Position numbers and translations under genes: made by a program | Shown: positions 1,728 to 30,967 of the stretch, one piece after another | Position numbering within the stretch: the stretch's first letter is position 1 | Layout of the letters: each line of letters starts with the position of its first letter | The notes under the pieces: generated by a model | What the model saw: only the letters and a program-made list of their open reading frames with translations | Database searches by the model: none | What the model was told of the DNA's origin: nothing | Assembly (NCBI GenBank): GCA_014584465.1 | Contig: JACTMU010000082.1 | Location: 1-64,000, forward strand | Origin: Pseudomonadota bacterium | GTDB taxonomy: Bacteria; Bdellovibrionota; Bdellovibrionia; Bdellovibrionales; JACTMU01 | DNA: 64,000 nucleotides | Reading direction: 5' to 3'

Positions 1728-1847
1728 GGTGCATTGAAAGACTGCAAGATCTGTGGATCCTCGAGTGGCATGGAAACAGATTTAGGCAATGAGTTGATTC
1801 GAATTTCGGTGGACCTTGACCGACAGCATGTTTTGCGTCAGAGGCCC

Positions 1848-2720
1848 TTACACCTTTTGGGAGGAGAGAGGGTGGTGGTGGTTGATGGTATCAGAAAGAG
1901 TCTTAGAGGTGACGGTTGTGTAGATTTGTGTGGTTTGGATGGACCGGTGCCCCAAAAGCAACTGAATGCTTCGAAGATCTGCTCCAGCCTCCAGAAGCGA
2001 GGTTGCACAGCCATGACGGAATTGATGGGGCGAGACGGGTTCTTCAAATCCAGCTCGTTTGGACCAGCTTGAGAGCCATCGCCAAATGTCAACTCGACTG
2101 GGGCGACGTTTTCGATCATTCACGATCACTGTGGGTCCAGTTTGCGGGTTTACGAGGTGAGGTCGAATCTCTTTAAGGTAAACTTGAAGCTCTTGGTTCA
2201 AGTTGGCAGTTAAGGGCACGATTCTTTGTTTTCCCCCTTTCCCTGTGATGGTGATCGTGAGGTCGGTTGCGTGGTAGTCGGAAAGATTGAGAGAGATGAG
2301 TTCGCTGACTCGACACCCTAGACCAAAGAGCAGAAGGAGAGTTGCCTCATTTCGTGCAGTACGAAAGAGATTCTCGGTCTTGCAGGAGTCAAAGAGTTTG
2401 TAGAAGGTTTCGATCGAGACCAGCTGAGGGAGCTTGGTGTGAACCCTCGGGAGGTGAAGCTCTTGAATTTGGGGAGATTTATGGCCTCGACTTTCACAAA
2501 ATCGCAGATAGGTACGAATGCAGCTTAAAACTCGTGCTTGAGATCGTACGCTCAAACCTCGCTTCTTCATGAGATCATAAAAACCAGGAAGGTGAGATGA
2601 GATCTTTAGGTACTCGTCATAGAGTTCAAGATCTCGTCGGTAAGCCATGATTGTGTTGCGGCTTCTTCCGCGAACATTCTGGAGGTCTTCAAAAAATTCA
2701 ATCCACAGTGGTAATGCCAC
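1848..2720 (-). CDS. Tyrosine recombinase, XerC/XerD family
   Basis: 290-residue site-specific recombinase. The N-terminal SAM-like core-binding domain (about 1-95) carries RSRNTIMAYRRDL. The catalytic domain shows the full tyrosine-recombinase set: Arg137 (GLGCRVSEL), Lys161 or Lys164 (TGKGGKQR), His232 and Arg235 (HQFRHGCAT), His258 (LLGHRSIQTTQ) and nucleophile Tyr267. Length and architecture match chromosomal XerC/XerD, which resolve chromosome dimers at dif. I cannot tell C from D. No integrase-type extra domain or att site is visible, so a housekeeping role is preferred over a mobile one. The start is GTG at 2720. Confidence 0.9.
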   Translation of the reverse strand: MALPLWIEFFEDLQNVRGRSRNTIMAYRRDLELYDEYLKISSHLPGFYDLMKKRGLSVRSQARVLSCIRTYLRFCESRGHKSPQIQELHLPRVHTKLPQLVSIETFYKLFDSCKTENLFRTARNEATLLLLFGLGCRVSELISLNLSDYHATDLTITITGKGGKQRIVPLTANLNQELQVYLKEIRPHLVNPQTGPTVIVNDRKRRPSRVDIWRWLSSWSKRAGFEEPVSPHQFRHGCATSLLEAGADLRSIQLLLGHRSIQTTQIYTTVTSKTLSDTINHHHPLSSQKV

Positions 2721-2792
2721 CTCATCAAACTACTTTGTCCCCAATTTGGAGGCAAGCAGGAAGATGAGGGATTGCAATAGGACTAGGCCTTC

Positions 2793-3485
2793 TCAATAGT
2801 ATGCATGGTAGAGAGAGAAGCGACACCATGCAGGTGGAACAATGCCATTGATGGACAAGATTTCTAGGTTGTTAATTCCTTGCATGGCGTAGTTGTAACT
2901 GCCACCAAGGTAGTGGCCTCGAATGGCCGAGGTGGGCATAAAGTAGGTCAGTCCCACCTCCATCTCAATGACGACACCATTGCCAGTCGCCTGCAAATAA
3001 AGTCCCGACACTTCACCCGAGCCTGAATTGTAGTAACCAACATCCAATGGGATCACATTGTAGAGTCCTGGAGGCATTGGATCTGGAAGGCCCGCCAAAT
3101 CGAAATCACAGATATAGGGGCTTGAATCGATCACATACATTGAACCAATGCCATAAACTTGGCCGTTGATGCCACCATACCCAATTCGTCCAGGGTAGGG
3201 GTGTTGATTGTAGAGTCCTTGATCTCCGATGATTTCAAGTCCCATCTCAAGGCCAATGTCATAATCATCGGCTTGACCAAGGGCGGTTCCCATTGAGACT
3301 TCCGTGCCAAACCACGGATAGACCGGGCCCACAACGGGTGGGACGACCGGTGGTGGGTTGTAATCATTGCCATCGTCTCCCTTTTTGCCGCAGCCATTTA
3401 AGATCACAAGTGCTAGGCCTGCAACGCAAGCTAAGAGGACTCGCTTGGCATTCATAACTTTGTGTTTTCCGACTGACCTGTTCAT
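2793..3485 (-). CDS. Predicted lipoprotein, unknown function
   Basis: 230 residues. The N-terminus has a signal peptide ending in the lipobox LNGC, then a Lys/Gly/Asp linker and a proline-rich stretch (PPPVVPPVVGP). The mature part is rich in Gly, Tyr and Asp and has alternating hydrophobic residues suggesting beta structure. No known domain was recognised. The ATG at 3485 is set by an AAGGAG eight bases upstream; a second Met at residue 11 would give a tighter signal peptide but lacks an SD. It lies 28 bases downstream of another lipoprotein gene on the same strand, so the two are probably co-transcribed. Confidence 0.8.
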   Translation of the reverse strand: MNRSVGKHKVMNAKRVLLACVAGLALVILNGCGKKGDDGNDYNPPPVVPPVVGPVYPWFGTEVSMGTALGQADDYDIGLEMGLEIIGDQGLYNQHPYPGRIGYGGINGQVYGIGSMYVIDSSPYICDFDLAGLPDPMPPGLYNVIPLDVGYYNSGSGEVSGLYLQATGNGVVIEMEVGLTYFMPTSAIRGHYLGGSYNYAMQGINNLEILSINGIVPPAWCRFSLYHAYY

Positions 3486-3513
3486 CTTACATACTCCTTC
3501 ATTGGACTCCCAT

Positions 3514-4245
3514 CTAATTTTTCATGGCAGCGCTACGGCTTAATCCTGAAAAAGTTCCTAGTTTCTTATACTCTGTTGGATCTACAGAGCTGTCGTGATC
3601 ATTTTTTGCATGAGGTTCCAATGGGTTCCCTGAAAAGGATGCTCTACAGTCATAGGGGCCCATTTCGATCTCCCAACAGGGGGTATCTGTGGGGTTGGTT
3701 GGCGCATTGGTCGTGCCGTGGTTTTTATACCATACAGAACCCGAGACCTTGTCACTTGTGATTCCATCGCCAAGATTCTCTGTCTTTTCTATTATGAAGG
3801 CAATGGCTCCAAACTCATCTTCTAAGATGGATTGGAACATCTTCTTTTTCTTAGTGACTTTCACCCATTTGTTGTCGCCAGGGTAGTCGCCATTTGTGGT
3901 GAAGACACCACGATGTTCGATGCCAGAGTCCGTAAAGGTGATTTCGATCTCACCGCCGTATCGACCATCATTGTTGGCTTCAAGAGAGACTGTGAGGATC
4001 ACATCCGAAGGAGCATTGACGGCATCTTGGATGTAGTCAGCCAGACGAGAGTTGGAAGAAATCCTGAGTTTGACGGAGTTGCTGGAGAGGGTAGTCCCCC
4101 CATCATTGTCATTGGGATCGGTCGTGTCAGGTGGGGGATTGGATGCTGGAGGGGCCTCATAGGAGTCCTTCTCAGAGGCGCAACCGACAAAGAGCCCCAA
4201 TTGAAGAAGCATTAAAAGAAGGAAGAGTCCTCTTTTAAATCTCAT
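3514..4245 (-). CDS. Predicted lipoprotein, unknown function
   Basis: About 243 residues from the ATG at 4245, chosen because GGAGG lies nine bases upstream; the frame stays open 51 bases further. The signal peptide MRFKRGLFLLLMLLQLGLF is followed by lipobox VGCAS, so Cys is lipidated. An Asp/Pro/Asn-rich linker follows, then a domain with beta-like alternation (LRISSNSRLADYIQDAV and VILTVSLEANNDGRYGGEI). No family was recognised. It probably forms a two-gene unit with the lipoprotein downstream. Location is expected at the inner face of the outer membrane or the cell surface. Confidence 0.8.
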   Translation of the reverse strand: MRFKRGLFLLLMLLQLGLFVGCASEKDSYEAPPASNPPPDTTDPNDNDGGTTLSSNSVKLRISSNSRLADYIQDAVNAPSDVILTVSLEANNDGRYGGEIEITFTDSGIEHRGVFTTNGDYPGDNKWVKVTKKKKMFQSILEDEFGAIAFIIEKTENLGDGITSDKVSGSVWYKNHGTTNAPTNPTDTPCWEIEMGPYDCRASFSGNPLEPHAKNDHDSSVDPTEYKKLGTFSGLSRSAAMKN

Positions 4246-4728
4246 TAAATAAAACCTCCATTGCTCTAAATTGGGCTTTCGCACAGTCACCACCATGTGG
4301 GTTTATGAAGAGAGCCCATTCCATAGAATCTTTATGCGAGAGTTGTGCCGAAGTGAGATTGATTTTGTAACTAATTGAAATTTCTTAATTTTATCACCAT
4401 GTAGAGAGGTGTTGAGCACTCCCTTGAGTTGTCAAAGTGCCGCATTTGGGCTCTGGGACAAGGTTCACTTAAAGAAATTCATAGTGATTTCAACTGGTTA
4501 CTTAACATCTTGGAGATGCAGCAAGATTGACTAACCTTTTGACAGGTGGTCTCATCTCTTTTTTGCCAAAAGAGGCAAATTGAGCATAGAAAATGAGCCA
4601 ATAGGCCGATATAGGAAGTACAAAGTCTATTGTGGAGAAATTCTATGAAGTTCGTTACCTTGATGAGTCTGGCTGCAATCAGTTTTTTTGCAGTTCGCGT
4701 ACTTATGGCGATCCTGTAGGGGGCTACA
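4246..4728. other. AT-rich intergenic region, 483 bases
   Basis: This stretch separates the two lipoprotein genes from the SpoIID-type gene. It should contain the promoter of the lipoprotein pair, but no convincing -35/-10 pair was found. A short hairpin TTTGCC/GGCAAA lies near 4563-4580. The only coding candidate is a 24-codon hydrophobic reading frame on the plus strand, listed separately. Longer open frames overlap the SpoIID gene and look spurious. Confidence 0.5.
4645..4719 (+). CDS. Possible 24-residue hydrophobic peptide
   Basis: A short frame ATG to TAG encodes a peptide beginning MKFVTLMSLAAISFF, with one Lys at the start and one Arg in the middle, resembling a single-span small membrane protein. 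GGAG lies about nine bases upstream of the ATG. Nothing but the SD and hydrophobicity supports it, and it could be chance. Confidence 0.25.
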   Translation: MKFVTLMSLAAISFFAVRVLMAIL

Positions 4729-5961
4729 TCAATGAGCCTTTGCCACTCTTTGAAGGAGTGAGCGTTGCACCAATCGCGCTTGAGGGTAGTAGTGTTCAAG
4801 AATTTTTTCGTAGCTCAGCCCCTTTCGAGCCCAATATCGAGACCCCCACTGACAGAGTCCAACTCCGTGTCCATGTCCCAGACCCGCAATTGAAAACCCA
4901 TTCTGCCTCGGTTCAATCTTGAAATTGGCACTCTTCATCTTTTGAAATCCCACAATTTGGCGAAAATCCTGGCCACTCAATCGCACACTTTGATCGTTCC
5001 AGGAAATCTCGACCTGATCCACTCGCCCCGAAAGAAATCGTTTACGAACGGATACATCGTGAATTTCAGTCGCTTTGGATCCAACTTGTAAGAGATCTGG
5101 GAAAACACTCTGGATCTTTTTTCTGAGCTCGTTTTTTGAAAGTTCCACCTTCCACTGTGCATGAGGGCTTGTGGGGCAGCCTCGATCTTGTGTGGTCCCG
5201 AAAAATTCACCATTGGACCAAACATGATCAGGCTCTTCCGTCACCCCACCGCAATCGGCATGGTAGTAGGCGCGAAGAATATCGCCACCAGAATCTGAGA
5301 GCACCAGTCCCTTTGTGGATTGCACAATGTTGCGCATCTTCTTCGCGAAATGGGGGGCAAGCTCGTTGGGTCCATAGATCCGAAAGACCTGATCTTCAAT
5401 CGTATCTTCAAGGTGGTACCTGGATTCGGATTGAGTTTTCAGAGTGGCCAACGTGTAAGAGCGGGTTGCAACCACCTGGGCTTTGAGTGCTTCGATCGGC
5501 CACGATCCAGGCATTTCAGAGGGGAGGACGCCCACAAGGTAATCCTCTAAGCCTACGAGCCCAATGACTTCAAACTGCCCTCGTGAAGTTGGAAAAAGTT
5601 GAAGTTGAGAAGGAACAAATTTGCGTCCAATTCTGAGAGATTCGCCAGAAATGAGAAGAGTCTCTCCTAAAATTCGAAGCAAAGAGCCATCATTTGTTTG
5701 GATCTGCCAAAGTGGTCCTCGGTCGGTGTTATCATAGGAAATTGACGAGCGGACTTCCGATGAGATACTGATCTTTCGGCCTGAATTTGAAATAGAGATG
5801 ACGATCTTGGTAGGTGAGTGGAGCGTAACTCGCTTTTTACCTCGGTAAATTCGAACTCGGATTTCATCATTACCCCAACCCCATCCCATTGAGGAAAAGC
5901 CCACAAACAGAATGAGCAGTGTCCCCCAAATGAAAAGCATTTTGTAGTTCTTCGTTTTCAT
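4729..5961 (-). CDS. SpoIID/LytB-domain protein, probable exported peptidoglycan lytic enzyme
   Basis: 410 residues with an N-terminal hydrophobic segment (LFIWGTLLILFVGFSSMGW) suggesting export or membrane anchoring. The SpoIID domain is clear: VGVLPSEMPGSWPIEALKAQ, then VVATRSYTLA, and near the C-terminus GHGHGVGLCQWGSRYWA followed by YEKILEHYYPQA. In sporulating bacteria SpoIID is a lytic transglycosylase acting on denuded glycan; homologues in non-sporulating bacteria are assigned similar cell-wall roles. The catalytic Glu in PSEMP is retained. The gene lies downstream of the stomatin/NfeD genes on the same strand, with a 55-base gap. Confidence 0.88.
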   Translation of the reverse strand: MKTKNYKMLFIWGTLLILFVGFSSMGWGWGNDEIRVRIYRGKKRVTLHSPTKIVISISNSGRKISISSEVRSSISYDNTDRGPLWQIQTNDGSLLRILGETLLISGESLRIGRKFVPSQLQLFPTSRGQFEVIGLVGLEDYLVGVLPSEMPGSWPIEALKAQVVATRSYTLATLKTQSESRYHLEDTIEDQVFRIYGPNELAPHFAKKMRNIVQSTKGLVLSDSGGDILRAYYHADCGGVTEEPDHVWSNGEFFGTTQDRGCPTSPHAQWKVELSKNELRKKIQSVFPDLLQVGSKATEIHDVSVRKRFLSGRVDQVEISWNDQSVRLSGQDFRQIVGFQKMKSANFKIEPRQNGFSIAGLGHGHGVGLCQWGSRYWARKGLSYEKILEHYYPQARLVQRSLLQRVAKAH

Positions 5962-6016
5962 TGTTTTACACGAAAGAGTTCAACAAATACTGATGTTGCT
6001 ACAAGTTGCCGCGCCA

Positions 6017-6775
6017 TTACTGTTGGCCTGCTTCGCCTCCTCTCTCTATAAAGGCATTGATCATATCCACTGGAAGTGGGAATATGATGGTCTTTGTGGA
6101 CTCCGTTGAAATTTCGGTCAGTGTTTGGAGGTAGGCAAGCTGTAGGGCCGATGGAGAACTCGCAAGTGTTTTCGAGGCCTCTGCAAGTTTTGAGGCCCGT
6201 TGGACCTCTCCTTCGGCGCTGATGATCTTTGCTCTTCTCTCTCGTTCCGCCTCTGCTTGTCTTGCCATTGCACGTTGCATTTCCTTTGGCAGATCGATGT
6301 GCTTGAGCTCTACGGCCGTAACCTTAATGCCCCAAGGTTCCGTGTCTCGATCCAAAATATCTTGAAGGCGATGGTTGATCTTCTCACGATTTTGTAAGAG
6401 ATCGTCAAGTTCGAACTGCCCAAGAACCGATCGCAACGTTGTCTGAGCAAGTTGAGATGTCGCAAAATAGTAATCTTCGATCTTCGTGATTGCCGATTCA
6501 GGATCGGTCACACGAAAATAGAGGACCGCATTCACCTTGAGACTGATGTTGTCAACCGTAATGATATCCTGAGGTTGAACATCCATCGTGACGGTTCGAG
6601 TGTCCAAGCGAATCAAACGCTCCACCCCCGGAATAAGAATGATAAGTCCTGGGCCGCGAGTTCCAACATAGCGGCCAAATCGTAAGACTACGCCACGTTC
6701 CCATTCGGGTAATATCTTGATCATCGAAAAAAGAATGATCAAACCAAAAACAATAAGAATAACAATAAATGGCAC
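6017..6775 (-). CDS. Stomatin/slipin-type SPFH membrane protein
   Basis: 252 residues. An N-terminal membrane segment ([18 protein letters not shown]) is followed by the SPFH/prohibitin domain with [20 protein letters not shown] and [17 protein letters not shown]. The C-terminal helix contains the Glu/Arg/Ala-rich [17 protein letters not shown] typical of slipins. These proteins oligomerise in membrane microdomains and are partnered with NfeD-type proteases. The gene follows the NfeD gene by 11 bases, the classical slipin-NfeD arrangement. Confidence 0.93.
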
Positions 6776-13772: not shown

Positions 13773-16610
13773 CTAAAATGAACCAATGGAAAAGTGAAAT
13801 CGGTAGGGAGCTTCATTTTCTTTCTTATCGAGGACAAATCCCATCTCAAGATTGATGGAGCCAACAGGAGTTTCAAAATTGACACCGAAACCAGCAGCGT
13901 CCCGATACTCGTCTGCAAAATCATATCCTGCGATGCGCACGCCTCCGCCATCATAAAAGATGGTGGTGCCAATGTTATCGAAGAGATGAATGCGAGCTTC
14001 CGACTTCAAGAGGTAAAAGAGGCTCTCAATGGGCACTACAAAATTCTGTTTGACATCAAACGCCGGATCGTTGGGGGGGCTGAGCTCATTTTCGTCTGGA
14101 ATCTTATCATGTTCAAATCCACGAATGGTGGATCTTCCACCTAAGCGAAACATAATCGCCGAGGGGACACCACCATTGACTTCTCGACTGAGGTTCACCA
14201 AGTAGCCACCTCTTAAAGAGTTTGCCAGGACGACACGCCCCCCCAAAGGGGTGTAGGTGGAGAAGGAACCTGTAGATTTGACAAATTGAATTCCACTGGA
14301 ACTCCCAATCTCGGGATCGGAGTATTGAAGAAAGAGCCGAAAGAGGTGTCCTTTTTTGGGTACAAATGGGTCGTCTCGATAGTCCCACTGGAGCGAGGGC
14401 CCTGTGGTGACAATCTGTTGCACTTTGGTCAAATCCTCAGAAGCTTCGGGATCGGACATCGTGCGTGTTTTGATCCCTGAAATATCTAAAATGTTCCAAA
14501 TTCCCTTAAAGTGGGAGGTGAAGTCACGCTCGACTAAGAAATTGATCTCGTTGTTCTCGAAGACCGTCAACTTTCCAGTTGCGGCATTGAACTCACTGAT
14601 CTCTTGATTTCGCGTGATATTGATTCGGCCGCTGGTCTGGGATTCAAAGAGAAAGGGTTCGTAGTATCCAGAGGTGAAACTGTGTTCAAGATACTTGTCC
14701 TCACCAACATTGGAGTTGAGTTCAAGACGCCCACTGATGGCTCGTGCCGTCCCATAAATGTTACGAAAGGCAAGACCTGTAAATCCACGTAGGGTCAACT
14801 TTCGTTCATTATTCACTCCAAATCCAAACTCAAATAGGCCCGGATTGCGTTCCACAACATGGACCACAACGGTTCGACGGGCAGTTTGAGACCCCTCTCC
14901 AACCGTGGCAATCTCCACGTGTGAGAAGAGTCCGGTGCGCTGAAGGTGACGGATCGATTCCGAAAGTGCAAGCGGCGTCAGAATATCTCCTTCTTGAAAT
15001 GAAAGACGTCGAGTGATGACGTAGTCCTTGGTCAAACTATTTCCTTCGATCGAAATCGCACCAACTTGAATTTGAGGACCCTCCCATACGTGAAAGAGCA
15101 AAGATGCCTGCGTGTTCGTTTCATTGTAGGAGATCAGGCTCTCCTCATTGAGTAGAATCATTTCAAGATAGCCTCGATCTCGGTAATGGTTTCGAAGAAG
15201 GCTGAGACTCTCTTCAAAATCGGAAAGCTTTAGGGGTGCTCCCGTTTTCAGAGCAATGACTTGGGACAACTGATAATCAGAAAAGACACCATTGCCTGAG
15301 AAGGCAATCTTTCCCACCTGTGTGAGGGGTCCCTCATCCACAGACAGCTCAAGATCAACCCGTCTGCCATCATCAATAAATATTGGACGAAGATAAGTTG
15401 TTTTGGCCTGAAAAAAACCTTCGTTTTGAAGGTGAAGTTTTAGGTTTTCAACTCCCTTTCCGATCTCCTCTTGGTTGTAATAGCCATCTTCCGTGACTTC
15501 TCCACTGTTTTCCAAAATAAGATGGACGTAGTATTCTGATGGCCTTGAGATACGGCCTGATACATGAACTTCACGAATGCGAACCTTTTCGTGCTCCTCA
15601 ATGAAAAGGGTGATTTGTCTGGCAAATCGGTCGGGATCAACTCTCTGTTTGTATTCGATCTTGGCATGAGAATAACCATTCTTATGATAAAATCGTTTGA
15701 CATTTTCGACCATCAAAAATGGAGGATCTTCCAGCGGAATGTTTCCCAAATTTTCTAGAGCAATCTTTCGCATTTGATAGGGTGAAAAATCCAGCAAACC
15801 CTCGAAAAAGATCTCGTAGATAAAGGGATCTTCAATTTCAAATGTGACCTCCGCATCCCGCATTCCATTGCTGTAGTGAATCTTGACATCAGAAATGCCG
15901 CATTTGAGGTAGTTCTTGTCCACGAAAAAATCTGTGATGGATCTTCTCAACTCATCTGAGACCGAATCCGATAGGGGTTTGCCGATGAATTGGGCTGCTC
16001 TCCCCCTGAGCTTTTGATTGAGGTCGAGATTGTCAGAATCGATGTAAACCCTTTTGATACGAGTCAATTCACCCTCAGAGATCTGAAATCGAAGTCGGAC
16101 CGAACCTGATTCCAACTGGTCGACCTTGCCCTGAATCTTTGTCTTAAGGTAACCCAGTGATCCATAGTAGGCTTTGATGTTTTGGGTCGCCTCAACGAGA
16201 ATCTTTTGGGTGAAGATGAGCTGCTCCTTAATCTTAAGGTGAACTCTGAGATCGTCTTCTGCAACCTCCTTAAGACCTTCAAAGAGAATCTCTTGAATCT
16301 CTCTTCGGCTTAAAAGTTTGATTGTGATGACATGGGGATCTGGCTTCGATTTAGGTTGTGTTAGGTAGGCCGAAACCGATTCGTATTTCCCTGAAGAGAT
16401 CAACTCCTTTACAAAGTCATCAATCTCCTCCAATGTGACATTTGGTTTAAAGTAGATCGGGAATTTCTTTTGAAGTTTTTGAACTTCTGACCGTGAAATG
16501 CCCTGAAAAACGACTTGTCGAGCGGGTCCGGAAGCGTGGGCTGGGAATGAGGAAACGATCAGCGTGATCACGAAAGAGATAAGAAAAAAGGCTGAGGTTT
16601 TCCAACTCAC
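13773..16610 (-). CDS. Omp85-family outer-membrane protein with about seven POTRA domains
   Basis: 945 residues with a signal peptide (FFLISFVITLIVSSFPAHA). About seven POTRA-like repeats fill residues 30-600, each starting with a short strand such as EILFEGL, YEIFFEGL, IREVHVSG, VGKIAFSGNG or VGAISIEGNS. The C-terminal barrel begins with FEFGFGVNNERKLTLRG, carries the Omp85 L6 motif IRGF (GGRSTIRGFEHD) and ends in Phe (FHFSIGSF). Omp85 proteins insert or export proteins at the outer membrane. BamA has five POTRAs and TamA three, so seven is long. The GTG start overlaps the TamB stop as GTGA, which suggests a TamA-like partner of TamB. Confidence 0.9.
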   Translation of the reverse strand: MSWKTSAFFLISFVITLIVSSFPAHASGPARQVVFQGISRSEVQKLQKKFPIYFKPNVTLEEIDDFVKELISSGKYESVSAYLTQPKSKPDPHVITIKLLSRREIQEILFEGLKEVAEDDLRVHLKIKEQLIFTQKILVEATQNIKAYYGSLGYLKTKIQGKVDQLESGSVRLRFQISEGELTRIKRVYIDSDNLDLNQKLRGRAAQFIGKPLSDSVSDELRRSITDFFVDKNYLKCGISDVKIHYSNGMRDAEVTFEIEDPFIYEIFFEGLLDFSPYQMRKIALENLGNIPLEDPPFLMVENVKRFYHKNGYSHAKIEYKQRVDPDRFARQITLFIEEHEKVRIREVHVSGRISRPSEYYVHLILENSGEVTEDGYYNQEEIGKGVENLKLHLQNEGFFQAKTTYLRPIFIDDGRRVDLELSVDEGPLTQVGKIAFSGNGVFSDYQLSQVIALKTGAPLKLSDFEESLSLLRNHYRDRGYLEMILLNEESLISYNETNTQASLLFHVWEGPQIQVGAISIEGNSLTKDYVITRRLSFQEGDILTPLALSESIRHLQRTGLFSHVEIATVGEGSQTARRTVVVHVVERNPGLFEFGFGVNNERKLTLRGFTGLAFRNIYGTARAISGRLELNSNVGEDKYLEHSFTSGYYEPFLFESQTSGRINITRNQEISEFNAATGKLTVFENNEINFLVERDFTSHFKGIWNILDISGIKTRTMSDPEASEDLTKVQQIVTTGPSLQWDYRDDPFVPKKGHLFRLFLQYSDPEIGSSSGIQFVKSTGSFSTYTPLGGRVVLANSLRGGYLVNLSREVNGGVPSAIMFRLGGRSTIRGFEHDKIPDENELSPPNDPAFDVKQNFVVPIESLFYLLKSEARIHLFDNIGTTIFYDGGGVRIAGYDFADEYRDAAGFGVNFETPVGSINLEMGFVLDKKENEAPYRFHFSIGSF

Positions 16611-19600
16611 TTGAATTCCACCTTGTAGCGCATGTCGATTCCAACCTTTTCAGGTGTGTCTTCTTGAGTCTGAGAAATGCCCTGCTCAAGTTCAGTTTGC
16701 TCCATCCAGAGAATGCTCGACCAATTTTCATTGACTTGATATTCAAGCACACCTTCGGTCTTTGACTTTTGACCAAGAGTCTGACTTCCTTTCACGAGGA
16801 GTCGTGGTGTCCACTGTTTTGAAACGGTGAATTTGGGTGCTCCGGTGTTGATGGTATCATTTTCCGATGAAATTTGAAATTTGAGCCCAAAGGGGTTTTT
16901 CAATGTGTCTCCGAGCGCCGATTTCGTAAATATCTGGGTGCCCAGTTGGACGGAGGATTGATAAACCTGGGTCGTGGTCTGTTCAAGCTCTTCGGTGGTA
17001 AGTCCTAATGTGAGAAGTGATATGATGTTCTCTTTTGTAAGAGGCGGCTGGCTTGAAAGATCAATCGAAGGATTCTCTGATGAGCCTTGAAGGGTAAGCC
17101 CCACATCGTACTCCTTCACGCGCGAAGATGCGGAAATATAGAGTTGAGCCTGGTCCGGTTTGTCGCGCTGAAAAACGATGTCCGAGGCTGTAACTTCAAA
17201 CGGGGTATCTTTAAAGAAGATCTTTGTCCCCTTTTTAAGTTTGACGCTTCCGACCATTTGGGGTCGGCCGGCTGGCCCTGTGAGTTGGACGGAGCCTGTC
17301 ACTTCGCCATCGACCAATGAGTTCTCAAGTGTGAAGTGATCTCCAAGTTCCACCATCAGATCCACCAAGAGGGGGTCACTCTGGTTCTGAAGAATCAGTT
17401 GTGGCAAGAAGGAGGCACGTTTGGTTAAAGTTTTCTTCGTCGCTTTGGAATCGAACTCTCGCGTAAAAAGGCCCTTCTTGATTTTGTAGCTCCCACTTAA
17501 GAGAAAGGGGAACCAATCTCCAGAAAAGAGAAGTTCTCCAGAGCCTTCAGAGTGAACCTTTTCAGGAAAATCCAATGAGATATTTTGAAACTGCGCCTTC
17601 ACGCGAGTCGGTATATTCCGAAGAGCCTTAAACATGATCGTTCCATCGGCGCTTAGATTTCCTCCTGCCATTTTTGCCGTAAGACTGTTAATGATCAGCT
17701 TTGATTGGCTGAACAACAGATCGGTTCGAACTCCCTCGAAGGGATAGGGAAATTCGCTCAGTTTTACATATGCGCCTTCAGAAAAAGCTGACCCCAGCAT
17801 TTCCATCTGGTTTCGTTCGCCACTGAACTGAAAGGAGAATCCCAAATTTCCACGAAGTTCTTCAAGAACTGGGGCAAAGAGAGTTAAAAACTCCATATTG
17901 ATTTTGCCGATCAACGTTGTATTGATTCTCTTTTGAGAGGAATCAAGGGCTTTGAGCTCGATCAAACTGTCTTTCCCGGATAAGACAAACCCTTCGGTGT
18001 TCAGAACGCCATTTGCAAATTTGGCCCTCAAAGGTGCTTCATGGCCGATCGAAACTGGACCTCGGCGAAGGATCAATCGGTCGATGTCGATCTTTCCAGA
18101 GGCATTCCAAAGACCATCTCTGGGCGAGGAGAGATCAATGACTCCTGTGATTTCAGAGGTGAAGCCTTTGGGTTGTGTTCCGGTAAGAATGGACAAGAAG
18201 GGAACGAAGTTCCAACGTGATGTCGAAAAGTAGAATGAAAAAGGGGAGGCCTCCTTAAGAGGAAGGAGAAATCGTGTGATCACGGTGGAACTCATAAGAT
18301 TGGCTGAGCCTTCCACCGCGTCTGAAGAGAAACGAACCTTCATCTCCGAGTCCCCCAGGCGCTGACTGTTCATCGTTGTATCGGTGAGTTGGCCCTTGAG
18401 TTCAATGAAAGGATGTCGGACAGGGCCTTCCAACTTCATAACAAAGGAAGCCTTGCCATTGAGCCCCCGCGCAAGGTGATTGATGGTCTCAGATTCTTCA
18501 AGGCGAAGATCTTTTCCTTGGATTTCCGTTTGGATCGTTCCGTCAGGGTGCCCCTTCCCAGTCAGGATGACCACCGATCGCCCCTTGGAAAGCTGCACTC
18601 GGTCTACAACAGCCTCTCCGTTTTTCGCGTGAACATTGAAGTGAATTTGATCAAAACTTTCGCGGTCGATCGTTCCTCGGTAAAGAGTTGAGTCCAATCG
18701 ATAGGTGAGCTTTGTGAAATCAAATGGTCCCGAAGCGGAGAGCTTCCCCGTGCCAGATCCCGAGATCTCAACGGGGATCTTGATCTTACGCGAAAAAATT
18801 TCAGCAAGATTGCGTGCTTCCACATAGGGAAAGGAGGCCACGACAGACAGAGTTGCTTTGGAAAGATCAATGTCAATCTCTCCGAAATATCTGGAAGCCC
18901 CATAGATGCCTTGAAGATTTTGAAACAGAAGATGGCCCTTCTTGTAGAAGAGTCGGGAGGTCCACTCTCCCATGGCGTAATTGTCGATCCAAAAGTTCGA
19001 TGTTTTCAGATCCATATAGAATGACGAGGTCGAGGAATTTCCCTTAATGGATCCCTTGATGCGGGTCTGTCCCTCAAATGGAACGGTGATCAGTTGAGTG
19101 AGGTCGCTAAAGAAGAACTCGTCTGTTTCATATTCACACTCAAATCCAGTAAGAAATTCAACGTAACCCGATGATCGTCCCTGACTCTTTTCAAGCTGAA
19201 GCTGTGCACTGTACTTGACGCCACGTGGGTCGATTTCAATATCTCCTCGAACCATTGCCTCGTTCATCTTGACAATGGGAAACTGCGCGGCCCCTTCCCC
19301 CACCGCAACATCAAGGTTTCGAGCACGCGCCCAACCACCCCTACATTGTATGGACAAGTTTGGATGGAGTTCGCCCGAGCAGGGGATTTCAGCATCAATG
19401 TCCAATAGGACCGGTATGGGACCTATTCCCAAAGTTAAAAGGAGCTTCTGGAGTTCAAATGCTTGCGATTTCAAAACGGTAGAGAAGAGGATCTTCTCTT
19501 GGAAATCCACGTGAAGCTTGTCTGCATAATAGCTCCCGGAGTCATTCGACACAGCCAACGTGTTCAAGATCAGTTTGGACGATTCAAACAGGCCATCAGC

Positions 19601-20542
19601 TACAAGTTCGCCAACCGTAAACTGATCCACTTTCAAATCGGTGGTCTTTGTTCGAAAGTGGTTGGAGATGAGCTTGCCGGCGCTCCAGGTCAAATCCATT
19701 TTAGCCTTCAAATGACCAAAAAGTGTTGGGAATTTCTGTTTTGGTAGGTAGGTGGTCAGCCACGTGTTCACGCTGGGAAGTTCGAGGGAGGCAAGGATCT
19801 CTCCCTGCGCTTTTAATGACTTTAAGTCCTCTTCTAAGTTGGAGAGAACTCCTTTGCCATTGAAAAAAGAGTTTCCCTTAAGGATTTTGACTTGGTCCAC
19901 CTCAATGACATCTTTGTACCAACGGCCCGCAACTCCAAATCCCACGGTGACGGGATTAGGAAGTTGCTTCATCTGAAGGGTGAGTTGAGGTGAGTTTGCT
20001 CCTATCTTCAAAGAGCGATTTTCACGTTGAAACTTAAGTTGAAGATGTTCGATCAACACCTGGCTCTTTGAACTTTGCTCATCGGCTCTGATTCGAGCAT
20101 GTTCAATTTGAACTTTTGAAAGTGGGACAAAGTGAAGAAGCTCAAACGTCTTGGCCAACGAAAACGAAAAATCTCCACGTTGTTTGATGTTGAACGAAAG
20201 GGTAATGTCTGGCCGTTCAATCTTTACTTGGTCGATCAAAAGTTGTCCCTTTAAAAGACGAAACAGATCAGGTCGAACGGTCATACGTTCAACCCTTCCC
20301 GGTGAGAGATGAGAAGAAAGTGTCTCATTTGGAACAAAGGAGATCTCCTTAAAGTGAACTTCAACAGGAAAGAAGGAGAGTTCTATGCCTCTGGCTAGCA
20401 TTTTAATCGGAAGGAAACGTCGACTTGTCTCCTCGATTTGAGAGAGAATCCAAGTCTCAACAGAATGAAGATGGTAGCGTCCCATGAAGCCGATGAGAAA
20501 AAAGAAGGCAGCAGTGAGGATGGGGACATAATACTTCTTCAT
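16607..20542 (-). CDS. tamB: TamB-family AsmA-like envelope bridge protein
   Basis: 1311 residues. One N-terminal transmembrane segment (ILTAAFFFLIGFMGRY) is followed by a very long beta-rich body of repeated amphipathic strands (bridge-like lipid-transfer fold) and the C-terminal DUF490/TamB domain, with KLKKGTKIFFKDTPFEV and LYISASSRVKEYDVGLTL near residues 1110-1160 and ENIISLLTLGLT after them. TamB spans the periplasm and is linked to phospholipid transport and, with Omp85 partners, to outer-membrane assembly. Four-base overlaps at both ends (ATGA with the TPR gene, GTGA with the Omp85 gene) indicate coupling. Confidence 0.9.
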   Translation of the reverse strand: MKKYYVPILTAAFFFLIGFMGRYHLHSVETWILSQIEETSRRFLPIKMLARGIELSFFPVEVHFKEISFVPNETLSSHLSPGRVERMTVRPDLFRLLKGQLLIDQVKIERPDITLSFNIKQRGDFSFSLAKTFELLHFVPLSKVQIEHARIRADEQSSKSQVLIEHLQLKFQRENRSLKIGANSPQLTLQMKQLPNPVTVGFGVAGRWYKDVIEVDQVKILKGNSFFNGKGVLSNLEEDLKSLKAQGEILASLELPSVNTWLTTYLPKQKFPTLFGHLKAKMDLTWSAGKLISNHFRTKTTDLKVDQFTVGELVADGLFESSKLILNTLAVSNDSGSYYADKLHVDFQEKILFSTVLKSQAFELQKLLLTLGIGPIPVLLDIDAEIPCSGELHPNLSIQCRGGWARARNLDVAVGEGAAQFPIVKMNEAMVRGDIEIDPRGVKYSAQLQLEKSQGRSSGYVEFLTGFECEYETDEFFFSDLTQLITVPFEGQTRIKGSIKGNSSTSSFYMDLKTSNFWIDNYAMGEWTSRLFYKKGHLLFQNLQGIYGASRYFGEIDIDLSKATLSVVASFPYVEARNLAEIFSRKIKIPVEISGSGTGKLSASGPFDFTKLTYRLDSTLYRGTIDRESFDQIHFNVHAKNGEAVVDRVQLSKGRSVVILTGKGHPDGTIQTEIQGKDLRLEESETINHLARGLNGKASFVMKLEGPVRHPFIELKGQLTDTTMNSQRLGDSEMKVRFSSDAVEGSANLMSSTVITRFLLPLKEASPFSFYFSTSRWNFVPFLSILTGTQPKGFTSEITGVIDLSSPRDGLWNASGKIDIDRLILRRGPVSIGHEAPLRAKFANGVLNTEGFVLSGKDSLIELKALDSSQKRINTTLIGKINMEFLTLFAPVLEELRGNLGFSFQFSGERNQMEMLGSAFSEGAYVKLSEFPYPFEGVRTDLLFSQSKLIINSLTAKMAGGNLSADGTIMFKALRNIPTRVKAQFQNISLDFPEKVHSEGSGELLFSGDWFPFLLSGSYKIKKGLFTREFDSKATKKTLTKRASFLPQLILQNQSDPLLVDLMVELGDHFTLENSLVDGEVTGSVQLTGPAGRPQMVGSVKLKKGTKIFFKDTPFEVTASDIVFQRDKPDQAQLYISASSRVKEYDVGLTLQGSSENPSIDLSSQPPLTKENIISLLTLGLTTEELEQTTTQVYQSSVQLGTQIFTKSALGDTLKNPFGLKFQISSENDTINTGAPKFTVSKQWTPRLLVKGSQTLGQKSKTEGVLEYQVNENWSSILWMEQTELEQGISQTQEDTPEKVGIDMRYKVEFK

Positions 20543-25534: not shown

Positions 25535-25906
25535 ATGTTTCGCAAAGTCGCTATCTTTATCGCTCTTTTGGTTGTGGTAGGAGTGGCCTCGGTGAGCCTG
25601 CTTGAGTTTGCGGATGCCTCTCCGGCACCTGAAGGAGGTTTCCCGGTGGAGATCGATCTTCCCCAGCTCGACTGTGCTATGATTGTAAAGATGACCACCT
25701 ATGGGGATCAGAAGCTGGGTGAGCTCTACCTTCAGATTGAGGATGTTATGGGAAGATGGGCCAACGAGTATCCCGTCACCGATGAGGAGAAGAGGGAATA
25801 TGAGGAGGTCTATGCGAAATCCGTTCCTCTTCGCTATGAGCAGCGGCTCATCATCTTTGGAAGTGAACTGTTGGACGGCTATCGGGCCAAATATTGCAAT
25901 CCGTGA
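25535..25906 (+). CDS. Small exported or membrane-anchored protein, unknown
   Basis: 123 residues; ATG preceded by GGAGAGG. An N-terminal hydrophobic segment (FIALLVVVGVASVSLLEF) followed by ADAS is a plausible signal peptide. The mature part is acidic and helical, with two Cys (LPQLDCAMIV and the C-terminal AKYCNP) that might form a disulphide in the periplasm. No family was recognised. It lies about 100 bases after ruvB and ends just before hairpin repeat copy 2. Confidence 0.72.
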   Translation: MFRKVAIFIALLVVVGVASVSLLEFADASPAPEGGFPVEIDLPQLDCAMIVKMTTYGDQKLGELYLQIEDVMGRWANEYPVTDEEKREYEEVYAKSVPLRYEQRLIIFGSELLDGYRAKYCNP

Positions 25907-25924: not shown

Positions 25925-25963
25925 TAGTGCCATGGCTCGAAAGCAGGTTTCGCGCCAGCCACT
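25925..25963 (-). repeat. Hairpin repeat, copy 2
   Basis: Inverted relative to copy 1. On the minus strand it begins AGTGGCTGGCGCGAAACCTG and ends TTTCGAGCCATGGCACT. The right arm carries a small change (CCATGGCACT for CCAGCCACT). It lies between convergent genes and overlaps two bases of the TAG stop of the last pilin/tail-fibre gene. Confidence 0.8.
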
Positions 25964-27656
25964 ACTTGACGAGGACGTGAATCGTATCGGTCTCTTTGAG
26001 CTCACCTTGATCGTCCACTCCGCATGAGCTCATCGCGCGCCCTACAATCTGAAAGGAGGGTGGCTTGGATTCATCCGAGGCCAAAGCTCGAAGGTGCCCA
26101 CGTTTTGTGGAGGTTACAAGAAGATCCCCCTTTTTAAGAGGGGTTCCCTTATGGCTGCACACCACTCGGGTCTCTTCGGAGAGGCCCATGAGGGCAATGG
26201 GGTACCAGCCACGACAGGCCTCATCGCCTCGCCACTCTTGAGTGTTGAGGATTCCAAGATTGATCCCATTTTTTGCTCCCTCTGAGGCGAGGGTGTGTGC
26301 GCAACCTCGTCGAAGAACCATCTCTGCAAGCTCTTGAGCTACTCCAATCACGAGACGACTGCGATCCTCTTGGCAAGGGGCAAGTTTTCCCGAAGCTTGA
26401 TCAAGGCACATGACACTTCCATTGTCGGGCGTTTCACTGACTTGCATCATCTCAGAGACGACAGAACAGGAGGTGCAACTCTCAGTTTTAAGCCCGATCT
26501 CGCCCGAGAAGTGGCCAGCATAGAATTTCCCCCCGCTCGTTGCGTATCCGAGTCGCCCTTGGGCCTTCGTATTTCCATTGTTGTGGGCGGTGGATTCAAG
26601 GGCAATGTAGTCGTTGCTGGCAGTCCAATAGGCTGACTTCGATCGAGCGATGAGTTTGGAATCACTATCTTTGTAGTAATAATCGCTTAGGGAATTTGTC
26701 TCGTAGATGGAAAATTCGCCCGCACGGTTGTCGCTTCCACTGGCAACGTCGGCACGCAGGCCTGATTCATAGTTTTGAGTACCAAGATTGCCAACTGCCG
26801 TATGAACTCGAGCGATCGTTTGGCTCGTATTGTCTTTCAATACAAAAGAGCCGGCATTCAGGTGTTGCTCGTTGGGGTCTTTAAAAAGACTCTCAGAGTA
26901 AAAGACTCGCTCTTTGTATTCCGTTGAACTCCCGTCGACGATGGTCTTAGAAGGTCCGAAGAATTGCAGCTGATGATGGGTATCATCTTTGATATGAAGA
27001 AGGTTTTGCGGAGCTTCGCCACTTGGCAGACCGATTCCGACATTACCTCCGTAGTTGATCCCACTGGACTGCGATGTCCAATCCGCTGGCCCCTCGAGAG
27101 AGACGCCATAACATTCGGATATAGTACTGGCATTGGTATCAAAATTAACAGCCAGATTGATAGAGAAAGTTCTTTCACGGCTTGCCAAGGATGCCGAGCG
27201 CTTTTGCAGCGTGATGTTGAAGTTGGTGCTACCGAAGTCGTCAGAGTGCTTCTGAATCGCTCCGCCTAGGGTCATCTTTGAAATGGTCACATCGCCAAAA
27301 TCTTGCCCTGTGGAAAAAATAGAATCAAACGGAGGGTTTGCTGAGTTTAAGCGAGAGTAGGAGATTTGATTTGTTGGATTCTTACTCACAAAGTTTCTGG
27401 TACAGACCTCTCTTTCACTTAAAAAAGATCTGATCTGATTGACGAGATCATCCATGTCATATTGCTGGCCAATGTTCTTGTAGGACTTAAGCTGATTGGA
27501 GATGTATTGACTTGTTGTCAAACCTACAACTCCGAAAACGGCAATTCCCGCGAGGAGCTCGATCAAAGAAAACCCCAAGGAGTGCCTCAAGATCTGAGAA
27601 CCATTGAAGCAACCAATCTCGTCTCTAGATTCGGGGTGTTTAACGAATCCAAACAT
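25962..27656 (-). CDS. Prepilin-like/tail-fibre-like surface protein, paralogue C
   Basis: 564 residues. After a ~28-residue leader comes SLGFSLIELLAGIAVFGVVG, a canonical type IV prepilin signal: cleavage after Gly, Phe+1, Glu+5, hydrophobic helix. The middle includes GGNVGIGLPSGEAPQNLLHI, the NVGIG...LHV element common in tail-fibre-type proteins. The last ~170 residues hold CTSCSVVSEMMQV, NGSVMCLD, IGVAQE, a cysteine-rich section and KKGDLLVTST, resembling the C-terminal domain of tail-fibre and surface proteins. Predicted pseudopilin-anchored adhesin. It overlaps the preceding paralogue by 17 bases. Confidence 0.8.
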   Translation of the reverse strand: MFGFVKHPESRDEIGCFNGSQILRHSLGFSLIELLAGIAVFGVVGLTTSQYISNQLKSYKNIGQQYDMDDLVNQIRSFLSEREVCTRNFVSKNPTNQISYSRLNSANPPFDSIFSTGQDFGDVTISKMTLGGAIQKHSDDFGSTNFNITLQKRSASLASRERTFSINLAVNFDTNASTISECYGVSLEGPADWTSQSSGINYGGNVGIGLPSGEAPQNLLHIKDDTHHQLQFFGPSKTIVDGSSTEYKERVFYSESLFKDPNEQHLNAGSFVLKDNTSQTIARVHTAVGNLGTQNYESGLRADVASGSDNRAGEFSIYETNSLSDYYYKDSDSKLIARSKSAYWTASNDYIALESTAHNNGNTKAQGRLGYATSGGKFYAGHFSGEIGLKTESCTSCSVVSEMMQVSETPDNGSVMCLDQASGKLAPCQEDRSRLVIGVAQELAEMVLRRGCAHTLASEGAKNGINLGILNTQEWRGDEACRGWYPIALMGLSEETRVVCSHKGTPLKKGDLLVTSTKRGHLRALASDESKPPSFQIVGRAMSSCGVDDQGELKETDTIHVLVK

Positions 27657-29319
27657 GAATTTGGTCCCTCTCTTTGGTTTGTCCGTTGGATGTTTTTGAA
27701 CATAGGCTCATGGCGCGGCCTACAATCTGAACTCCATGAACCGGTTCTCCATCTTCCAGAGCGCGTAAAAAACCCTTTCGTGATGAGGATACAAGAAGAT
27801 CACCATAGCCTAGAGGTGAACCATCAGAAAGGTGACAAATCACATTGGTGAATTCAGATACTCCTGACAAGGCCACCGGATACCATTTTTTACATTCAGG
27901 CTTGTCCCGAAACCCATCCGTGTTGAGGACCCCTAAGTGGAGTGAATTTTCTCCGTTTGCCTGGGTTGTTTTCTCGCACCCCATTCTTAAAATCATCTCT
28001 GCGTTTTTCTGTGCAATGCCGATGATGTCGGGACTCTTGTCTTCAGTACAAGGTGAGATCTTTCCACTTCGTTGTTCGAGGCAAAGGACACTCCCATTTT
28101 CAGGTTGGCCAAAGACGGGCATCATCTCAGAAACTACAGAGCAATTCGTACATGTTTGAGTGAAAACTCCGTCTTTAGAATCAAAGTACCCTCCATAAAA
28201 TGTCCCACCCACTTTGGCGGCAAGTTGACCTTTGGCTTTGTAGCCCCCCGAAGTGCCACTTGAGCCGTAAACGAGAGCATGGAGTCCCGAATAGTTGCTG
28301 CTATCTTCCCAATAGCCGGCGTTGGAACGTATTCTCAAATTGGTGTCACTCTCTTCGTCGTCGGGTACCGAATCCTTGAAGAGGGAAAAGGAGGCAGCTC
28401 GGTTGGCACCCCCGTCTTTATTGATTACGGCGGCTCGGATCCCCGATTCGAAATTGTCCTCACCTCCATTGGACACTCCCATTTCCGTTTTGGCAACAAT
28501 GTTGGAATTGTCCTTGAGTCCGAAGTAGCCAGTAACCCTTCGATCCCTATTCAAGGCGTTTGAGTCAATCGATGAGGAAACAAATAGAGAGCGTTTGTGG
28601 CCACTTGCAGAGTCATCTGCGGGAAATCGCAGAAAGTTGTTACCATTTCGAACATCCAGGCGATAGTCGGGATTAAACCCTAATCCGATTCCGACATTCC
28701 TATTGTAGATGATCTTGTTGGGCTCAAACGGACTTGTCTGCCACAAAGTATTGTTGGTGGCTGTTGAAGAAGAGCAGTAAGTGATCCCACCAGCGTCGCG
28801 CTGGATCAAGATAGAAATGTCTACTGTTTTTTCTCTTGAACCAAAGGATTGTCCGGTCTTTTCAAGAAGAAGAGATAAGGATGTTCGACCTGACGCACTA
28901 GCTGAAGGAGACGCCATATTTCCAAAAAATTCAGATTTGCCTCCGAATCGAATCCCCAAGATGCGAACTCGATTGCTCCCGTACGTTTTTCCAGACTCAA
29001 ACGTTGTGTCTCCGTCAGCATCAACAAGACGAGAAAGATGGGTTTGAATTGATGGATCTTTTCCATTGAAGTTGGCAAGACAGTCATCACTGTCCCTGAG
29101 TCCTCTCTTAATATCATCAACCAGGGAGAGAATCTCCTCTTGCTGTTCAACGTTTCGCATGGCCTTGAGTTGATTTGAGGCAAGTTGTGTTGTCGCAAGT
29201 CCTAAGATAGAAGCGATGACGACACCCACCATTACGGAAACAAGAGATGTTCCCTTTTGGCTCGAACAAGCGCAAAAATTGCTCAAACTAGAATGTCTAT
29301 TTGTACTTGACCAAAACAT
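27640..29319 (-). CDS. Prepilin-like/tail-fibre-like surface protein, paralogue B
   Basis: About 559 residues from ATG 29319 (TTG at 29322 is adjacent). Same architecture as its neighbours. The pilin-like helix is QKGTSLVSVMVGVVIASILG with Ser instead of Glu at +5, followed by TTQLASNQLKAMRNVEQQ, closely matching paralogue C. NVGIGLGFNPDYRLDVRNG lies in the middle and CTNCSVVSEMMPV, NGSVLCLEQ and GYGDLLVSSS near the end. Loss of Glu+5 questions normal pilus assembly. The start overlaps the end of paralogue A out of frame. Confidence 0.8.
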   Translation of the reverse strand: MFWSSTNRHSSLSNFCACSSQKGTSLVSVMVGVVIASILGLATTQLASNQLKAMRNVEQQEEILSLVDDIKRGLRDSDDCLANFNGKDPSIQTHLSRLVDADGDTTFESGKTYGSNRVRILGIRFGGKSEFFGNMASPSASASGRTSLSLLLEKTGQSFGSREKTVDISILIQRDAGGITYCSSSTATNNTLWQTSPFEPNKIIYNRNVGIGLGFNPDYRLDVRNGNNFLRFPADDSASGHKRSLFVSSSIDSNALNRDRRVTGYFGLKDNSNIVAKTEMGVSNGGEDNFESGIRAAVINKDGGANRAASFSLFKDSVPDDEESDTNLRIRSNAGYWEDSSNYSGLHALVYGSSGTSGGYKAKGQLAAKVGGTFYGGYFDSKDGVFTQTCTNCSVVSEMMPVFGQPENGSVLCLEQRSGKISPCTEDKSPDIIGIAQKNAEMILRMGCEKTTQANGENSLHLGVLNTDGFRDKPECKKWYPVALSGVSEFTNVICHLSDGSPLGYGDLLVSSSRKGFLRALEDGEPVHGVQIVGRAMSLCSKTSNGQTKERDQIHVWIR

Positions 29320-30967
29320 CAATTACATCCCTTTTTGCGGTTTTGCCATCAGAGTTTTTCGCGCATTCGTCCATAGCGCGCCCTGCAATTTGAAAATCAA
29401 GAACCTCTTCGTTGTGATCAAGGGCGCGAAGAAGTCCTACCGTTTGCCCTGAAGTGACCAAGATGTCTCCTCGTTGAAGGAGAGACCCGTCGGGTCGTTG
29501 ACAAAGGACATGGGTCTTTTCCGAGACTCCGGCCATGGCAATTGGATACCATCCCTTGCAGCGTGACTCCGTTCGCCATCCTTTTGTGTTAAGAGGGCCA
29601 ACGATCATTCCATTTTCACCGTTCTTTTTGAGGGTTTCCGAACATCCTCTACGAAGAAGAATCTCCGCATTTTCCTGCGCAATGCCTATGACGGAAGAGC
29701 TTTTATCGTGGTCACAGGACTTGAGCATCCCACTTTTACGGTTGATGCACATCACAGTCCCATTGTGAGGCTCCTCTTCGACCTCCATCATTTCGGCAAT
29801 GACCGAACACGCACTGCAAGCCGTAGAGCGAAAACCTACGGCTCCCTCGAAGTGGCCTCCGTAGTAGGTTCCACTCACTTTTGCTCCCAAATAGGCGATA
29901 GCCTGAGGATTGGAGGTTCCACTAGAATTAAAGATACGAGCTTGAGCTCCCGTGAAAGTATTGTTGTTTTCCCAGTAACCAAAACGAATTCGAGCCCTAA
30001 GATCATTATCGTCCTCGTCGTTTTCGAGAGTCCCGCTTTTGAAGAGTGAAAAGGCAGCGGCTTTGTTCTCTCTTGCCTTTACAATGTCGGAACGAACACC
30101 TGTTTTGAAGCTGGCCGAATCCTCGTTGGACGAGGTAAGACGTACGCGAGCGAGGGTGTCAGCGCCAGCAAGGAGCTCAAAGGTGCCTGTTTCGACCTTG
30201 TCGGTTGTGGAGATCATCGTGGTTGTGGAAGCAAAGGTCGATTTGGCAATAGAATTTTCAACATCTGTACTCGGAACATAAAAGCTTCGCCCACTGCTCT
30301 CTTGAATGTGAAAGAGCGCATCGGGTTTGAATTTGAGATCGTCACTCAAACCCACCATTTTTGTCGTATTGATCCCGAACAGCTGATTGGTCGAATCATC
30401 TGCAGTTTGCCAAAATGAGTTTCCCCCGTCCATCTTGAGTTGGCATTGATCAAGTCTATTGTTGTCAAAGCTTGCAGAGATCTCCAATTCAATGGTTCGT
30501 GAGTTGGATCCGAAGGTAGAACTTTTATTTTCGAGTTCGATTTGAAGAGGAAATCTAAAATAGGTATGGAGAGAAGTTGCACGATTGCCAGCGTCGCTTG
30601 AAATAAAGAACTCAGTCTTTGAGCCTCCGTACTTGATTGTTTTGATCTGAAGAGTCTCATTTCCATAGGAATAGCTGCTTCCAGTGGAGAACCTTGAAAC
30701 GCCGTTGGCATCCACGAGCTCGCTAAGAGATTTCACATTTCCGAGGCTGCCAGGTGTTGTGTTGCTGAGATTGGTCGTGCAAACACCTTCGGCACTGAGG
30801 AAGACGCGAAGTTGGCTCTCGAAGGCATCGAGTTCTGATCTGGTCTGTTTGGTCTTCACATTTTTGAGGTGATTGGAGGCAAGTTGCATCCAGGAATGGG
30901 AGGCGATGGCCAAGATGCCAATCAAAACCGTCAGGAGTAGAAGTGAGGAGCCTCGTGCGTTCGTCAT
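29297..30967 (-). CDS. Prepilin-like/tail-fibre-like surface protein, paralogue A
   Basis: About 556 residues from ATG 30967, with GGGGA about nine bases upstream and a short leader MTNARG. An upstream in-frame GTG at 31012 is the alternative. The helix SSLLLLTVLIGILAIASHSW lacks Glu at +5. Shared features with B and C are the ASNHLKN segment, a Cys about residue 65, and C-terminal CSACSVIAEMMEV, NGTVMCIN, IGIAQENAE, LRRGC, ILVTSGQ and IAGRAMDEC. It is the first of the three-gene array, which looks like tandem duplication followed by divergence. Confidence 0.78.
   Translation of the reverse strand: MTNARGSSLLLLTVLIGILAIASHSWMQLASNHLKNVKTKQTRSELDAFESQLRVFLSAEGVCTTNLSNTTPGSLGNVKSLSELVDANGVSRFSTGSSYSYGNETLQIKTIKYGGSKTEFFISSDAGNRATSLHTYFRFPLQIELENKSSTFGSNSRTIELEISASFDNNRLDQCQLKMDGGNSFWQTADDSTNQLFGINTTKMVGLSDDLKFKPDALFHIQESSGRSFYVPSTDVENSIAKSTFASTTTMISTTDKVETGTFELLAGADTLARVRLTSSNEDSASFKTGVRSDIVKARENKAAAFSLFKSGTLENDEDDNDLRARIRFGYWENNNTFTGAQARIFNSSGTSNPQAIAYLGAKVSGTYYGGHFEGAVGFRSTACSACSVIAEMMEVEEEPHNGTVMCINRKSGMLKSCDHDKSSSVIGIAQENAEILLRRGCSETLKKNGENGMIVGPLNTKGWRTESRCKGWYPIAMAGVSEKTHVLCQRPDGSLLQRGDILVTSGQTVGLLRALDHNEEVLDFQIAGRAMDECAKNSDGKTAKRDVIDVLVKYK

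Follow-up and report, generated by a model that had tools for sequence, protein, structure and literature searches.

Pilins with large additional domains have been described in several bacteria. PilB and PilC of Streptococcus sanguinis are modular pilins, and the InterPro survey published with them lists a prepilin signal joined to a Peptidase_S74 domain (IPR012902-IPR030392) among the common architectures; in that 2021 study the S74 domain was taken as a possible peptidase activity (PMC8179133). TcpB of the Vibrio cholerae toxin-coregulated pilus (TCP) and CofB of the colonization factor antigen III (CFA/III) pilus of enterotoxigenic Escherichia coli (ETEC) are minor pilins with extra β-rich domains; the trimer that these domains form has been placed at the tip of the pilus by modelling (PMC9565799). 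The KilL-M-N proteins of the predator Myxococcus are interchangeable, disulphide-rich minor-pilin tips of a Tad pilus, with three proteins per tip, and the MATs of Bdellovibrio bacteriovorus are trimeric fibres (PMC12075869; PMC10769870). Here we analyse a stretch of 64,000 nucleotides (the window; contig C73 of a 3.75-Mb genome in 120 contigs, GCA_014584465.1) from a member of the Bdellovibrionota, in which three tandem genes encode proteins that join a pilin-type beginning to a tail-fibre-type end. Sequence comparison establishes the prepilin signal and pilin module, the fibre element, the chaperone-type module, the tandem overlapping genes and the exchange of ends in this family. We propose, with a probability of about 0.62, that the products of the array are modular minor pilins, expressed together, that would form a tail-fibre-type spike on the tip of a pilus.

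The genes are co-oriented on the minus strand and follow one another as P0003 (29297..31012, 571 amino acids as the longest open reading frame (ORF)), P0002 (27640..29322, 560 amino acids) and P0001 (25962..27656, 564 amino acids), with overlaps of 26 bp between P0003 and P0002 and 17 bp between P0002 and P0001. Both P0002 (ATG at 29319, with an AAGGGA-type sequence upstream) and P0001 have a good ribosome-binding site ahead of the ATG. In P0003, an in-frame ATG at 30967 yields the six-residue leader MTNARG; the array end that the preliminary description placed at 30967 is valid as this start, whereas the longest ORF extends to 31012. P0002 and P0003 can be aligned with P0001 from end to end (36–40% identity), and all three proteins are full length and open and keep ten non-leader cysteines, eight in the C-terminal module and two in the pilin module. 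The earlier claim of three adjacent, alignable genes with a common C-terminal module is thus confirmed by the end-to-end alignment, the overlapping ORFs and the match to an outside profile (see below).

P0001 is the sole copy with Glu+5 and has a signal of canonical prepilin type (LG/FSLIELL, in which the slash marks the predicted cut). The signal and the start of the helix, LG/FSLIELLAGIAVFGVVG at 27519..27587 (minus strand), score 24.9 bits against N_methyl in the genome scan (cut-off 21.2), 20.1 bits on the whole protein, which is just below the cut-off, and 17.6 against TIGR02532 (cut-off 16.3). The prepilin-like signal of P0002, KG/TSLVSVMVGVVIASILG at 29191..29265 (minus strand), is weak (KG/TSLVSVM, Ser+5; 14 bits against N_methyl, below the cut-off) and is supported by alignment, and that of P0003, MTNARG/SSLLLLTVLIGILAIAS at 30878..30967 (minus strand), is recognized by alignment only (RG/SSLLLLT, Leu+5). 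Alignment and signal scan therefore bear out the residues given earlier for position +5, namely Leu, Ser and Glu in gene order. A profile built from the N-module (the first ~220 residues) in the three window copies and 15 relatives matches solved pilins over the helix, with geopilin at E = 8.8 × 10−7. Two cysteines of this module, C85 and C182 in P0001 numbering, are invariant in all 50 aligned family members. A draft AlphaFold2 model of P0001 has a helix at residues 30–79 followed by four strands, at low confidence (mean predicted local distance difference test (pLDDT) score of 40, from a three-row alignment). The prepilin-type N terminus is thus supported by the signal models for P0001, by alignment and by the match of the family profile to solved pilins.

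At the end of the N-module lies the element NVGIG..P..L.V, which in a family-profile search matches the crystallized MAT fibre Bd2133 (8ond; E = 8 × 10−7 as a whole-sequence value that adds up several repeats); weaker matches were to other MATs and to the stalk of MYRF. In agreement with the preliminary description, it is intact in two copies, P0001 (NVGIG...L.I, 26997..27044, minus strand) and P0002 (NVGIG...L.V, 28651..28698, minus strand), both located by alignment and by the match to 8ond; in P0003 it is degenerate (MVGLS, 30311..30358, minus strand, by alignment). The fibre parts of the three proteins are of near-equal length (179, 181 and 188 residues). The stalks of MYRF and of phage tailspikes are trimeric and are followed by a chaperone domain (PMC8326128).

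The three proteins end in a module of ~180 amino acids with eight invariant cysteines and 50–52% identity between copies, which we refer to as GDLL/G2-type (P0001, 25965..26504; P0002, 27643..28179; P0003, 29306..29845; all on the minus strand and assigned by profile homology). Searches of the window proteins against Pfam, NCBIfam, PHROGs, the PDB, phages and plasmids returned nothing but the pilin signal; Pfam scans found neither a Peptidase_S74 nor an H-type lectin domain, and an SDxxxK match in P0001, which has no S74 domain, was taken as chance. A consensus probe for the pattern 'PIALVGKV...GDLLTTS.TPGHAMKA...VIGKAL' matched plasmid-encoded proteins of Cyanobacteria, Actinomycetota, Bacteroidota and Pseudomonadota as well as proteins of jumbo phages, with two of the phage proteins annotated as 'baseplate wedge subunit and tail pin' and 'virion structural protein'. 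An alignment of ten of these proteins, none of them from the window (family A6), matched the window modules in hhalign with a probability of 97.8% (E = 1.3 × 10−12), compared with 0.1% for the N-module as a negative control. A search of every ORF in the fetched loci with the A6 profile recovered the three window proteins (E = 8.9 × 10−10, 6.1 × 10−6 and 1.1 × 10−5; next best, 0.21). Because this profile was built from outside sequences only, the C-terminal homology is not due to chance.

The A6 profile also matches a tailspike chaperone domain (28nb, E = 9.8 × 10−4) and a neck-appendage fragment (3gqh, E = 0.017), and four of the ten A6 members match Peptidase_G2. The claim of a tail-fibre-type C-terminal module, including kinship to Peptidase_G2, is therefore supported through this intermediate family by hhalign and profile matches. 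With these chaperones the array module shares its C-terminal position after a fibre and, via A6, the pattern DxAE...G.V..L...VVGVVS...VALVG.V; it differs from them in an insert of ~40 residues, its eight cysteines, the lack of a direct Pfam match and a Val in place of the Asp of DxAE, the Glu being kept. The solved 3gqh fragment starts at this Asp, which we take to have a role in cleavage at that site. Since all three copies carry Val instead, no cleavage would be expected and the end module would be retained as a tip. Modules with the ADxAE...GDLLTTS...VIGKAL pattern end proteins of many phyla and of jumbo phages (L089, L091-L099), mostly annotated as 'hypothetical protein'; with no Pfam family of their own and weak Peptidase_G2 matches, they seem to lack a family model.

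The N-module is present in 246 of 369 Bdellovibrionota genomes at E ≤ 10−9, although, with at most eight candidates scored per genome, the copy numbers are minimum values, and the weakest matches may be other prepilins. Among 50 members scanned for domains after the N-module, 14 have Peptidase_S74 (with the SDxxxK motif kept in most of those inspected), one (L050) has an H-type lectin and one has a Hint-type domain; many ends are without assignment. Peptidase_S74 and H-type lectin domains are known from trimeric fibres or tips. The combination of a pilin with a GDLL-type module was found only in the array genome and not elsewhere in 291 sampled Bdellovibrionota genomes, nor did the A6 profile detect the module in other sampled family members when run against the ORFs of the fetched loci. 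One other match in the phylum (E = 0.0045) has three internal stops and is not credible. Scans of genome contigs with the full-length array alignment, of viral contigs with the C-terminal module, and of phage and plasmid collections with P0002 gave no match.

At position +5, the 50 family members have Glu in 20 cases and another residue in 29, with one not scorable; nearly all members retain the Gly that precedes the cut. Glu+5 is not universal among minor pilins, and GspK, for example, is without it. As residues other than Glu are common in the family, a missing Glu+5 cannot be read as inactivation, and the earlier proposal that only one member of the array is assembly-competent finds no support, given also that all four genes of another cluster (L045) have Ser+5.

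Among 86 sampled arrays of this family, 73 consist of one gene, 5 of two genes and 8 of three; the ratio is biased, as the sample includes loci chosen for their tandem appearance. Triplets of near-equal length recur (L131, 525/525/525 amino acids; L134, 494/524/490; L201, 372/355/364). L131 (positions 1544-6266, genome G255) is a close parallel to the window array, with three tandem pilin and fibre genes in abutting frames and S74-type ends. Mixed +5 residues within one array occur in the window, L046, L132 and L201, and in the pairs L055, L135 and L195. The cluster L045 (3828-9599, genome G023, contig C110) comprises four family genes, the fourth copy lying 526 bp away, with N-modules up to 87% identical and ends 28–37% identical; among three of the copies the N-modules are 82–87% identical and the ends 30–37%. 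It looks like a case of tips exchanged on a constant pilin carrier. The last gene of L045 ends in a Hint-type (Vint) domain. The window array is the opposite of L045, with ends that are 39–46% identical and N-modules that are 30–33% identical. Across the family as a whole, the alignments indicate exchange of ends on the pilin module.

The array genome encodes PilD (PF06750, E = 5.4 × 10−33), several ATPases of the PilB/GspE superfamily (PF00437) and secretins, a positive outcome of the check for pilD and pil/gsp genes suggested at the outset. A cluster on contig C94 that resembles a type II secretion system (T2SS) has its own prepilin genes and is not linked to the array. On contig C91 of the same genome (L141, 1886-9671), prepilin genes are followed by an ORF of 1,391 amino acids whose match to PilY1 is weak (a sub-threshold 19.5 bits); a Pfam scan of the ORF itself found nothing, and this cluster is possibly the ordinary pilus-tip operon of the genome. 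The array is flanked on one side by ruvCAB-like genes and on the other by a hydrolase-like and a PAP2 gene, and these neighbours are uninformative. A scan for promoters and terminators gave hardly any, if any, excess over chance. Elsewhere in the window, adjacent genes for Omp85/POTRA and TamB proteins (13773-20542, minus strand) resemble a TamA-TamB pair, and a 123-amino-acid ORF with a signal-like N terminus and no Pfam match (25535-25906, plus strand) is convergent with the array.

The description of the array proteins as pilin-anchored tail-fibre chimaeras is well supported by these comparisons. In the mechanism that we envisage, the prepilin signal would insert each protein into the inner membrane, PilD would cut it after the Gly and the N-terminal helix would join a type IV filament. 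Beyond the pilin module would follow a tail-fibre-type stalk and then the disulphide-rich module, which is akin to phage-tailspike intramolecular chaperones and may drive trimerization. The trimer would be a spike at the end of the pilus and bind a surface, which could plausibly belong to prey or to another cell; processing by PilD, the trimer, its location at the tip and adhesion are the parts that we infer. Several results weigh against this proposal. Glu+5 is missing from P0002 and P0003, and the profile scan found no hidden Markov model match for the prepilin signal of P0003. No pilus or secretion gene adjoins the array, which is not a gsp operon, so that the filament the proteins would join is not indicated. 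The link of the end module to Peptidase_G2 is indirect and weak, with no direct Pfam match in the window proteins and kinship solely via A6. Support for the fold from AlphaFold is poor, with a mean pLDDT of 40 for the whole protein and 41 for the C-terminal module (three rows each).

The spike may be either homo- or heterotrimeric. An obligate heterotrimer, with one copy of each product per spike, would be a particular case of the minor-pilin spike and has parallels in GspI-J-K at the tip of the type II secretion pseudopilus and in the KilL-M-N tips, for which heterotrimeric minor-pilin tips have been modelled (PMC12075869). The three overlapping genes of near-equal size, their fibre parts of near-equal length, and the recurrence in other genomes of near-equal triplets and of mixed +5 residues would all fit; however, homotrimers must be the usual state in a family in which 73 of 86 sampled arrays are single genes, phage fibres and MATs are homotrimeric, and some triplets have Glu+5 throughout, and we regard the obligate heterotrimer as a tentative possibility. 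More doubtful is its fuller form, in which one of each paralogue would wind into a single fibre and the retained, disulphide-locked chaperone-type domain would itself be the ligand-binding tip of the pilus.

Other alternatives concern the fate of the pilin part. Prepilin signals cannot separate pili from pseudopili, and the genome has several sets of secretins and ATPases, so the proteins could be components of a type II secretion system or of another type IV-like machine, with a role in export instead of adhesion; we consider this unlikely, as the T2SS-like cluster on C94 has its own prepilin genes and no link to the array, and exchangeable fibre-type ends fit binding better than export. The weak signals of P0002 and P0003, together with the many relatives without Glu+5, would also suit periplasmic or surface fibres for which the prepilin-type helix is a mere anchor that never enters a filament. 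This, too, seems improbable, because conservation extends beyond a hydrophobic helix to an entire pilin module, including the two invariant cysteines, and nearly all members likewise keep the Gly before the cut. The least credible option is that P0001 alone can be assembled and that P0002 and P0003 are decaying or decoy copies; the restriction of Glu+5 to P0001 and the degenerate fibre element of P0003 point that way, but all three proteins are intact with their cysteines, and we reject this explanation on the grounds that a residue other than Glu is usual at +5 (29 of the 49 family members that could be scored).

How does a minor-pilin spike of this kind compare with the described systems? 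As in the modular pilins of PMC8179133, a pilin module carries a large C-terminal graft, and the S74-bearing relatives show the listed architecture exactly; the array copies differ in having a GDLL/G2-type end in place of S74, and the fibre element and chaperone-type end of the family suggest trimeric fibres, in contrast to the peptidase reading of the survey. The conserved N-module of ~220 amino acids and the tandem triplets are not described there. A literature search pairing 'prepilin' with 'peptidase S74' found none among the papers searched, which means little, as PMC8179133 words it otherwise. The relative L050 ends in an H-type lectin, the fold type of domain 3 of TcpB and CofB, whereas the array copies are without it and their extra part is of tail-fibre type. 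The array shares with the MATs (PMC10769870) the NVGIG..P..L.V β-helix element, tail-fibre or chaperone-type ends, tips swapped between paralogues and a predator lineage. MATs, however, are not pilins and begin with a Sec signal peptide and a conserved β-rich domain of ~130 amino acids; this N terminus was not encountered in the array proteins, which start with a prepilin signal and a pilin-type module. The KilL-M-N tips (PMC12075869) resemble the array in being interchangeable minor-pilin tips of a predator, three to a tip and rich in disulphides, but as minor pilins they are of the Tad type, their distal domains differ and look unrelated, and no tail-fibre module is reported there. The pilin-S74 architecture, trimeric tip pilins and the exchangeable pilin tips of a predator are thus already known (PMC8179133, PMC9565799, PMC12075869); the novel features here are the GDLL/G2-type ending, a MAT-type element within pilins, an N-module conserved across the phylum and triplets that recur.

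The combination of pilin module, MAT-type element and chaperone-type end offers a concrete reading, as trimeric spikes, for the pilin-S74 proteins of the 2021 survey (PMC8179133). For the question of how Bdellovibrio-like predators recognize diverse prey, MAT fibres are one published answer, and further tail-fibre-type proteins borne on pili would tie pili to target recognition. If the more doubtful reading, a heterotrimer with the chaperone-type domain as ligand-binding tip, is correct, the retractable pili of Bdellovibrio-type bacteria would bear receptor-binding spikes of a phage-like kind, with tips that are exchanged within the family across the phylum.

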